Origin: Cyanosarcina radialis HA8281-LM2 | GTDB taxonomy: Bacteria > Cyanobacteriota > Cyanobacteriia > Cyanobacteriales > CCAP-1448 | DNA: 64,000 bases | Assembly: GCA_019359615.1 (NCBI GenBank) | Contig: JAHHHA010000001.1 | Location: 186,001 to 250,000, forward strand | Direction: 5' to 3' | Part shown: positions 20,171 to 60,882 of the stretch, in pieces | How positions within the stretch are numbered: position 1 is the first letter of the stretch | Layout: every line of letters begins with the position of its first letter | Program-made: the position numbers and the translations under genes | The notes under the pieces: model-generated | Told to the model about the DNA's origin: nothing | Seen by the model: the letters and a program-made list of their open reading frames with translations, nothing else | The model's database searches: none

Positions 20171-20926
20171 TTAAAACTCAAACCGATTTAAAGTCTGCAA
20201 GCATTTTTGGAAAGCTCGTGCCTCTGGGTGTTGAGATTCGAGAAACTGGGAGGGAGTTCCTAAAAAGACCACCTCTCCTCGATCGAGCAAACCAATTCTC
20301 GACCCCAAAATGAAGGCTTCTTGAATATCGTGAGTGACAAAAATTACTGTTTTGCCCAATTGGGCTTGCAACCTGCGAAACTCTTGTTGCATTTCCAGGC
20401 GAGTAATCGGATCTAGCGCCCCGAAAGGTTCGTCCATCAACAGCAAGGGCGGATCGGCAGCGAGAGCGCGGGCCACGCCCACCCGCTGCCTTTGTCCGCC
20501 AGAGAGTTCGTGGGGATAGCGATCGCTAAATCGTTCTGGTGGCAAGCCTACTAGATGCAAAAGTTCGCCAACGCGGGTTTTGATTTGCTTGGGTTTCCAA
20601 CCTTCTAAAAATGGAACTAATCCAATATTTCGTTCTACCGTGAAATGAGGAAACAACCCGATTTCTTGGATGGCATAACCGATTTGCCGCCGCAATTTAA
20701 TTGGGTTCCATTTGGTAGTGGGAATACCTGCTACCCTCACTTCGCCCCCAGTCGGTACTAAGAGGTTATTAATTAATTTCATTGTCGTAGTTTTGCCGCT
20801 ACCGCTGCGACCCAATAAGATCAGGACTTCACCTCGATCGACAGTAAAATTGAGATTTGATACCAAAGGTCGATCGCTAGGGCAATAGGTAACACGATCG
20901 AATTCAACGGCGATTTCGTTTTTCAT
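20171..20926 (-). CDS. ABC transporter ATP-binding protein (osmoprotectant/OpuCA-like)
   Basis: The 251-residue protein contains all ATPase motifs: Walker A GRSGSGKT (39-46), Q-loop in YAIQEIGLFPHFTV, signature LSGGQRQRVGVARAL, Walker B LLLMDEPFGALD and the switch His in VTHD. The closest family by feel is the glycine betaine/choline/ergothioneine group (OpuCA, YehX), based on IGYAIQEIGLFPHFTVERNI and DPITRLEMQQEF. It lacks the C-terminal CBS domains found in some OpuCA proteins. No permease or binding protein is adjacent, so the substrate is uncertain. Confidence 0.85.
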   Translation of the reverse strand: MKNEIAVEFDRVTYCPSDRPLVSNLNFTVDRGEVLILLGRSGSGKTTTMKLINNLLVPTGGEVRVAGIPTTKWNPIKLRRQIGYAIQEIGLFPHFTVERNIGLVPFLEGWKPKQIKTRVGELLHLVGLPPERFSDRYPHELSGGQRQRVGVARALAADPPLLLMDEPFGALDPITRLEMQQEFRRLQAQLGKTVIFVTHDIQEAFILGSRIGLLDRGEVVFLGTPSQFLESQHPEARAFQKCLQTLNRFEF

Positions 20927-59690: not shown

Positions 59691-59748
59691 CATGCCTGGA
59701 TTGCTTTAGCAGTTGTTGGCATTGATGCCAGATCTAATGCTCGATCTG

Positions 59749-59830
59749 ACTTTATCTGACTTTTTATCACTTATTGCAACAATTTAACCCTCAATTTCCT
59801 ATAAAAACTAGTAACTTTATCTGACTTTTT
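59749..59830 (+). promoter_or_regulatory. Pair of 17-base direct repeats upstream of the peptide cluster
   Basis: ACTTTATCTGACTTTTT occurs at 59749-59765 and 59814-59830, identical in all 17 bases and 65 bases apart (start to start), about six helical turns. The second is 83 bases before the first peptide start codon. This suggests a regulator site or a promoter duplication. Confidence 0.55.
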
Positions 59831-59913
59831 CATGCTGTGTAAATCAGAGCAAATAGTTACTTTATATACATGGTTAATTCAAACCAACGAACTACCAATC
59901 AAAGAAAAAAACA

Positions 59914-60108
59914 ATGTCAAACCAACTCGAACAAACTCAATCTTTGTATGCTGAAAAACTGAGCGATCGCGACTTAGAAGCGATTGTCGGAGGAGTCAAA
60001 GACGAGCGAAGCTCAACTTGTCCTTACAATCCGTCCAACTTACCTCCAGATCATCCCTGCTATATCGGACCGGACAAGAAAACTAAACCGACTCCAACCG
60101 GACGCTAA
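59914..60108 (+). CDS. Double-glycine leader peptide precursor 1 (RiPP/bacteriocin-like)
   Basis: The 64-residue precursor has a 27-residue leader ending LSDRDLEAIVGG, the class of leader removed by C39-peptidase ABC exporters. The 37-residue core (VKDERSS..) holds two Cys and six Pro, including the motif DHPCYIGPDKKTK. It is polar and would be small and exported. No maturation enzyme or exporter lies within the window, so modification cannot be judged. Three such genes follow one another in this strand with conserved leaders and variable cores. Confidence 0.75.
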   Translation: MSNQLEQTQSLYAEKLSDRDLEAIVGGVKDERSSTCPYNPSNLPPDHPCYIGPDKKTKPTPTGR

Positions 60109-60155
60109 ATCTTTGCCAACATTTTCAAATACTAACCAATTTAAGGAGAAAACCA

Positions 60156-60356
60156 ATGTCTATTCAATTGCAACAAACTGCCTTCTTGTCTGAAATCGAA
60201 TTAAGCGATCGCGAATTAGAAATCATCACTGGAGGAACTAGCGGTACTGTACCGACAACCGAAAAACCTAAACCTTGCCTAATCCTGGTTCCCGATGGCA
60301 GAAATCCTGATGGCACACCAAAATACAAACTCGTCAATATCTGCGACAAAAAATAG
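60156..60356 (+). CDS. Double-glycine leader peptide precursor 2
   Basis: The 66-residue precursor has a leader of exactly 27 residues ending LSDRELEIITGG. The 39-residue core has two Cys, in EKPKPCLIL and VNICDKK, and a basic C-terminal end. The start region AGGAGAAAACCAATGTCTATTCAA is almost identical to that of precursor 3, showing a recent duplication of the leader. A shared architecture with precursor 1 (GG at 26-27) supports one exporter for all three. Confidence 0.78.
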   Translation: MSIQLQQTAFLSEIELSDRELEIITGGTSGTVPTTEKPKPCLILVPDGRNPDGTPKYKLVNICDKK

Positions 60357-60364
60357 GATTTGAG

Positions 60365-60408
60365 TAACAGCAGAGACAATAACTAATACTGAATTGCTTC
60401 TGCCGTTA
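60365..60408 (+). repeat. Hairpin between precursor 2 and 3
   Basis: TAACAGCAG and CTGCCGTTA pair over 8 of 9 bases. There is no T-tract, so it could be a processing or attenuation element between the two peptide genes. Confidence 0.4.
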
Positions 60409-60532
60409 CGATCGATTCCTTAAGTTTAGAAGTTGTTGGGTAGATTGCAGATCGAGTTTTTTCAACAGCAATTGAAAGTCGAACCACTGTAACACCCGAC
60501 ATTTTTCATCGACCAATTACAAGAGAAAACCA

Positions 60533-60757
60533 ATGTCTATTCAAGCCCAACAAATTGCCTTTTTGTCTGAAACCGAATTAAGCGATCGCGAATTAGAAAT
60601 CGTCGTCGGAGGAGTTGTTAATAAACCAGTACCTCTGCCTTTACCTCCTAAGCCTTGTCCGACTTTTCCTCAACCAGGCGGTCCTTGTTATCCTTTTCCG
60701 CCTAAGCCTTGTCCGGCAGGTAGCGATTGCCCCATTCCTACACCAATGCCTTTGTAA
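60533..60757 (+). CDS. Double-glycine leader peptide precursor 3 (Pro/Cys-rich core)
   Basis: The 74-residue precursor has the leader ending LSDRELEIVVGG (GG at 26-27). The 47-residue core is 40 percent proline (19 Pro) with four Cys, and repeats PPKPCP twice (LPPKPCPTFP and FPPKPCPAGS). The GGPCYPF segment resembles HPCYIG in precursor 1. Pro/Cys spacing suggests disulfides or a polyproline helix; no known RiPP class can be assigned from sequence alone. It is followed by a terminator. Confidence 0.8.
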   Translation: MSIQAQQIAFLSETELSDRELEIVVGGVVNKPVPLPLPPKPCPTFPQPGGPCYPFPPKPCPAGSDCPIPTPMPL

Positions 60758-60781
60758 TTAGCCTCAAATTGCCACTTTCAA

Positions 60782-60823
60782 CCAGCAATCCTGCCTAAAG
60801 TTGGATATGCTGGCTGTTTTTTT
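60782..60823 (+). terminator. Terminator of the peptide cluster
   Basis: CCAGCA (60782-60787) pairs with TGCTGG (60808-60813), the inner ATCC/GGAT pair extends the stem, and CTGTTTTTTT follows. Confidence 0.85.
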
Positions 60824-60882
60824 GAAAGGAATTTTTTGTACGATTTCACCACTAGCTCTATTAGCGATCGCTCTAATAGTTG

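Follow-up and report, generated by a model that had tools for sequence, protein, structure and literature searches.

Exporter-less double-glycine peptide genes in a cyanobacterial genome share promoter repeats with genes for other, predicted secreted proteins

Three consecutive small genes in the 64-kb stretch of DNA analysed here (the window, G000:C21:186001-250000, from a host genome of 6.5 Mb) encode double-glycine precursor peptides, and the 10-bp direct repeats upstream of them recur at the other exporter-less precursor promoters that we found in the genome. These shared repeats are what is new here; the preliminary description of the window had not noticed them, and could not see a related cluster on another contig, C37. 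With their near-identical export tag, no exporter nearby and a promoter element that also stands before secreted-peptide genes dispersed through the genome, the genes look like part of a coordinated secreted-peptide set. We consider it probable that they are double-glycine precursors whose cores are exported in trans, and that they are co-regulated with other secreted proteins through the repeats.

The three open reading frames were found as the preliminary description had placed them, with its leader and core lengths and its count of prolines and cysteines in the third core (Table 1). All three leaders are 27 residues long and end in LSDR[DE]LE..xGG. The PCY and KPC motifs, previously given as common to the cores, are shared only in pairs (PCY by cores 1 and 3, KPC by cores 2 and 3), and neither occurs in all three. 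Behind gene 3, the fold of 60758-60830, around the possible terminator, has a z of -1.9, with 10 of 200 shuffles equally good, and a simple terminator scan did not list this hairpin.

Table 1. Features of the precursor cluster (positions within the window)
Feature	Position	Strand	Description
First array of 10-bp direct repeats	59739..59775	+	exact 19-mer at 59745-59763
Second repeat pair	59810..59837	+	65 bp further; ends in CATGCTG
Leader cassette 1	59893..59994	+	21 nt before ATG + 27-codon leader; 65% to copy 2
Precursor gene 1	59914..60108	+	64 aa; core 37 residues, 2 Cys
Leader cassette 2	60135..60236	+	reference copy (100%)
Precursor gene 2	60156..60356	+	66 aa; core 39 residues, 2 Cys
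Leader cassette 3	60512..60613	+	87% to copy 2
Precursor gene 3	60533..60757	+	74 aa; core 47 residues, 19 Pro + 4 Cys
Possible terminator	60782..60823	+	CCAGCA/TGCTGG hairpin, then seven T

C39 peptidases are described as recognising Leu(-12)-X3-Glu(-8)-Leu(-7) with V/L/I at -4 and GG, and 13 leader residues are enough for one such protease (available part of PMC6363468). The pattern in the form L(-12), E/D(-8), L(-7), V/I/L(-4), GG is present in 3/3 window genes, and the strict C39-type leader motif picks out three small ORFs in the whole 64 kb, exactly precursor genes 1-3. Chance would yield far fewer, with a mean of 0.11 and a maximum of 1 in 150 order-3 Markov sequences simulating the window, none of which had two motif ORFs within 1 kb on one strand.

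The similarity between the genes ends sharply at the predicted cleavage site. A 102-nt block starting 21 nt before the ATG occurs three times (Table 1), and the DNA of genes 2 and 3 is near-identical from the ribosome-binding site to codon 27, with similarity dropping to chance level just beyond. Their leaders agree at 71/81 nt, with 0.16 synonymous and 0.11 non-synonymous differences per site, and the leader of gene 1 is more distant (53/81 and 55/81 nt to the other two). With so little silent change in the leaders, unrelated cores are hard to obtain by ordinary substitution since the leaders parted; judging from the sequences, either the cores of genes 2 and 3 were probably replaced or their leaders homogenised. 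Peptides A and B of the C37 cluster show a break in similarity at the same place. We rejected this boundary as an unusual feature, since a comparison of 70 paralog pairs whose leader identity is 0.6 or higher, drawn from 17 of the 24 loci examined and not independent within a family, showed that such patterns are common in cyanobacterial precursors: the cores of 33 pairs were no more alike than shuffled sequences (z <2) and those of 28 were clearly related (z >=4), and among the pairs from other genomes 23/55 had a core z <2. The boundary is a clear, though not rare, case of leader reuse and core replacement. Within all three leaders, a palindrome that we take to be HIP1, GCGATCGC, encodes the residues SDR (59963-59970, 60205-60212 and 60582-60589); it is missing from the C37 leaders. 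The name HIP1 occurs in the available part of PMC6331805.

In the window itself we found no exporter or RiPP enzyme, in agreement with the preliminary description: in a blastp comparison (E 1e-3) of 17 exporter and RiPP proteins of the host genome with window ORFs of at least 60 aa, the sole match was a 251-aa stand-alone ABC ATPase at 20171-20926. The genome-wide check for C39-peptidase ABC transporters that the description had proposed returned seven C39 matches, six of which contain the catalytic-motif pattern used in the search, and this makes trans export possible. The conserved leader therefore stands in a genome that does have C39 exporters, and the proposed family of exported, variable peptides fits both the leader pattern and these remote exporters. 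The seventh match (L044 8222-10741) is encoded on the window's own contig, some 72 kb upstream of the precursor cluster. It is a long ABC exporter whose domains include a cNMP-binding and a C39-like one, and the search for the catalytic-motif pattern gave no match in it. On contig C7, a short-type exporter stands with HlyD and CTB-type genes, two of which exceed the NF038167 cut-off. The gene directly behind the exporter encodes a protein of 113 residues with ELSDREQENISAG close to the start; of the exporter-adjacent leaders this one scored best with the leader profile, though weakly (7.4 bits, E 0.7). This exporter is at most a candidate for the window peptides.

Long-type exporters stand on C27 and C54. 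Genes for an APH-type kinase and HopA1, a combination reminiscent of class V lanthipeptide enzymes, lie beside the C39 exporters at both loci (L039 7802-12954 on C27, identified by Pfam; L041 7615-12122 on C54, alike by eye), and the C27 locus also has a KSKS-repeat double-glycine peptide. In the group I clusters of Wang et al., which have long-type exporters, only 0.35 precursors each were recognised (PMC3140520, Table 2, the part available), so the C27 and C54 exporters, too, may handle precursors encoded at a distance.

In comparisons with curated families, the precursors stay below every cut-off. Against the CTB family bacteriocins (NF038167) they score 13.4, 16.3 and 15.7 bits, with a curated cut-off of 32; Nif11-leader RiPP precursors (TIGR03798) match the genome five times, always outside the window cluster; and lantibiotic models stay below cut-off, with LANC found only on C53 and none adjacent. 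The earlier impression that the cores look unlike lanthipeptides or cyanobactins is borne out by these comparisons, yet two LanM genes on C53 could act in trans. Their locus (L130, G000:C53:1-18443) also encodes TfuA and YcaO, in between the two LanM genes, as well as several precursors of LanM type; this short contig gave no C39 match.

Modification at a distance is the substance of one alternative, in which the genes would be prochlorosin-style RiPP precursors and a distant LanM, YcaO/TfuA, APH kinase with HopA1 or radical SAM enzyme would modify the cores in trans before export. Candidate enzymes are encoded in the genome, namely the C53 LanM pair with TfuA and YcaO between, the APH and HopA1 genes that adjoin the C27 exporter, and a radical SAM gene with SPASM beside C2 precursors that have the same promoter repeats. 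Prochlorosins, moreover, typically combine one common leader with hypervariable cores (available part of PMC10783134). We nevertheless regard this alternative as unlikely: the window leaders have 27 residues against 48 at the LanM genes, cores 1-3 match no RiPP family above cut-off, and core 3 offers only one Ser and two Thr for its four Cys.

A profile built from the three window peptides alone and run against the whole genome gave, as its next best matches, five places on C37 (E 0.007-0.036), followed by one at 1.9. The cluster there consists of five small genes, each with a 27-residue leader, four of which make up a two-gene unit duplicated in tandem (425 bp); the cores abound either in Arg or in Ser, Pro and Lys. 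No C39 match was found on C37, which makes this a second exporter-less cluster with the window leader type, and the exporter-less precursor loci found in the genome are three (C21, C37 and C2). Beyond the host, a six-leader profile found no full-leader relative in 291 genomes; 63 other genomes matched at E 0.05, the best at 2.9e-4 and mostly in the stretch beside GG. Pattern matches in genome_contigs and viral_contigs (153 and 74) included none confirmed at E 1e-3, and a search of plasmids for DNA similarity gave no match. That no orthologs and no nearby exporter were found would suit a decaying or silent cluster, the remnant of an old precursor locus that has lost its exporter. Such a history is very improbable, as all three frames are open, the cleavage residues are kept in 3/3, promoter repeats are present and exporters are encoded elsewhere in the genome.

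The 10-bp direct repeats upstream of gene 1, TCTGACTTTA TCTGACTTTT, conform to a consensus, CTKACTTTTTCTKACTTTTTC, that often occurs as two pairs 44-65 bp apart. They are found also upstream of both C37 promoters and, on C2, before two double-glycine genes of Nif11 type next to a radical SAM gene, at 154-180 nt from the precursor start codon. Across 18 promoters compared, the 19-mer was present with 0-2 mismatches at 5/5 exporter-less precursor promoters, four of them independent, the window promoter having supplied the pattern and matching by construction; at the remaining 13, of which 11 lie near an exporter or LanM and 2 belong to Nif11 proteins lacking GG, it had 4-9 mismatches, giving 0/13. 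Among 258 control ORFs of at least 100 aa from regions of the host genome, none had fewer than 5 mismatches within 250 nt upstream. Genome-wide, the 19-mer with up to 3 mismatches gave 43 sites and its reversed control 4; for a 25-base form that was built once the sites had been seen, WACTTTTTCTKACTTTTTCWKGCTG, the counts were 20 and 0. A sigma-70 scan gave one match only, on the minus strand and below the shuffle mean. Two literal 15-base versions of the repeat had no match in a literature search, one too narrow to show that the element is undescribed.

Repeat sites in the host genome stand before a varied set of genes, several of which encode proteins with Sec-like starts (on C5, C7, where there is a Pro/Cys-rich pair, C46, C29 and at C37:182131). 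By a crude signal-peptide rule, 6/13 of the host genes behind sites were positive, the monooxygenase among them evidently falsely, compared with 42/259 control ORFs. Not every product is secreted: sites also precede the genes for NblA, two LuxR-type regulators (one a response regulator), an MFS transporter, a styrene-monooxygenase-like protein, a DUF4278 protein and a Mo-nitro_C protein, and some sites have no clear gene behind them. The site before the NblA gene (PF04485; L289 1253-1435 on C1) lies 90 nt upstream of its start and hints at a stress-type regulator. The C7 pair (L257 3327-3967) comprises two tandem Sec-type Pro/Cys-rich peptides with [RP]FIDPF repeats, similar in composition to window core 3, and on C5 a Sec-type protein of ELWKSNGT repeats follows two repeat pairs (L256 913-2298).

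Confinement of the repeats to the host genome, as a search with at most one mismatch had indicated (10 sites in the host and 10 in the other 290 genomes, against a control of 5), was overturned by the longer, looser pattern. Across 148 genomes of the order, the 25-base form gave, besides the host's own sites, 8 in G001 (control 1), the only other member of the host family seen, 16 in G024 (control 0), and 19 sites in 17 genomes among the remaining 145 (control 4). In G001, a gene with a Sec-like start lies behind 6/8 sites, and two of these six genes look by eye like orthologs of the host's C46 and C37:182131 genes; the gene behind a seventh site encodes a relative of the 65-residue C7 protein (phmmer E 8e-13, two-sequence database). 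One G024 site also precedes a relative of that protein (E 2e-6); 11/16 sites were examined in this genome, and 7/11 had no gene start by the rule used. No double-glycine gene was seen behind the G001 and G024 sites examined, and the promoter type therefore seems older than the double-glycine genes under it. A 77-residue Sec-type peptide of G001 with a Tyr/Arg/Lys/Cys-rich end (L308, C148), whose gene starts 92 nt after a site, resembles in composition the C37 core GHKRYYRYCYYKNGKRYC, and like products may thus use different routes in the two genomes.

The cluster's neighbours are genes for a TlyA-type methyltransferase and an AAA/SMC-type ATPase, and the nearest named matches of a neighbouring protein come from cyanobacteria such as Hassallia, Scytonema, Nostoc and Trichocoleus. 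The AAA gene is present at E 1e-60 in 33/40 genomes, the host included, and on its 3' side no convincing double-glycine gene was seen in 19 other loci, one of which (L103) ends after 88 nt. A conserved neighbourhood was rejected, with a TlyA-type gene in none of 80 genome_contigs loci (tblastn 1e-20). An unrelated double-glycine ORF occurred near the AAA gene in 1/80 of these loci: in Scytonema sp. RU_4_4 (L162 7372-7617), an 81-residue ORF with an unrelated core lies just downstream of the AAA gene and on its strand.

These surroundings bear on a further alternative, that the peptides are secreted antimicrobials (bacteriocins) or signals and not structural. Their best family resemblance, weak at 13.4-16.3 bits against a cut-off of 32, is to the CTB bacteriocins, and double-glycine peptides are often bacteriocins or pheromones (available part of PMC10986499). 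On the other hand, no immunity-like gene was recognised adjoining the cluster, whose neighbours are the methyltransferase and the ATPase, and the fact that Sec-type proteins and NblA share its promoter points to a broader state; we rate this alternative as rather unlikely.

In the co-regulated, trans-exported reading that we favour, a regulator would bind the 10-bp direct repeats and switch on together the exporter-less precursors on C21, C37 and C2 and the other secreted proteins. Binding of tandem direct repeats is reported for PhoB (available part of PMC11126600) and, by our own reading of the corresponding part of PMC6331805, also for RpaB. The 27-residue leader would be removed after GG by a C39-peptidase ABC exporter from another locus, which would also carry the cores out of the cell. 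As their even Cys numbers (2, 2, 4) suggest, the cores may become disulfide-bridged without dedicated tailoring. The leader and ribosome-binding site behave as a cassette reused before replaced cores. Production of the peptides may be tied to a stress or community state. They would be comparable to EbfG1-4 of Synechococcus elongatus, and by this analogy an extracellular or community role would be expected; we propose, tentatively, that they are extracellular, surface or matrix peptides.

More speculatively still, the sites may mark a 'secretome' switch, in which one response regulator would act on paired 10-bp repeat arrays and its small products would leave through both C39 exporters and Sec. 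Double-glycine cassettes with exchangeable cores would have been recruited to this older promoter type in the present lineage, and the products would build or tune a Pro/Cys-rich extracellular layer. If so, two secretion routes would be tied to one switch, and the role of cyanobacterial double-glycine peptides could be tested through deletion of a single element or regulator. Genome mining commonly sets out from exporters or modifying enzymes and so easily misses double-glycine precursors without an exporter; a promoter element that groups them with other secreted proteins offers a means to find both such genes and their regulator.

Several known systems resemble parts of this arrangement. Like the repeats described here, HLR1, the RpaB element, has TTAC-type half-sites about one helical turn apart, by our own reading of the sequences listed in the available part of PMC6331805, where nblA is named as an HLR1 gene; one of our sites precedes nblA. 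HLR1 is a TTACA-type direct repeat; in the present repeats, for which RpaB is a possible binding protein, we see a 10-bp period and a half-site CTKAC followed by T, not A. Prochlorosins likewise place hypervariable cores behind a common leader, and a dedicated transporter is not always present, but their Nif11 leaders of ~60 aa and their modification by ProcM (available part of PMC10783134) have no counterpart found for the window genes. The cyanobacterial double-glycine bacteriocin precursors of Wang et al. 2011 (PMC3140520, in part) share with the window genes a conserved leader, little-conserved cores and an arrangement of several in a row; that survey acknowledges distantly located precursors and was centred on exporters and enzymes, whereas the window precursors are exporter-less and share a promoter element. 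Another parallel is provided by EbfG1-4 and PteB of Synechococcus elongatus PCC 7942 which, in the available parts of PMC4997328 and PMC9981879, comprise tandem small double-glycine precursors with differing mature parts that are similar in size to those of the window peptides and, like them, without homologs elsewhere. The EbfG peptides are exported by a C39 exporter and enable biofilm formation (the latter from PMC4997328), with ebfG genes that lie beside pteB, whereas the window genes have no adjacent C39 exporter; and EbfG1-3 form amyloid (PMC9981879), whereas the window cores are Pro/Cys-rich.
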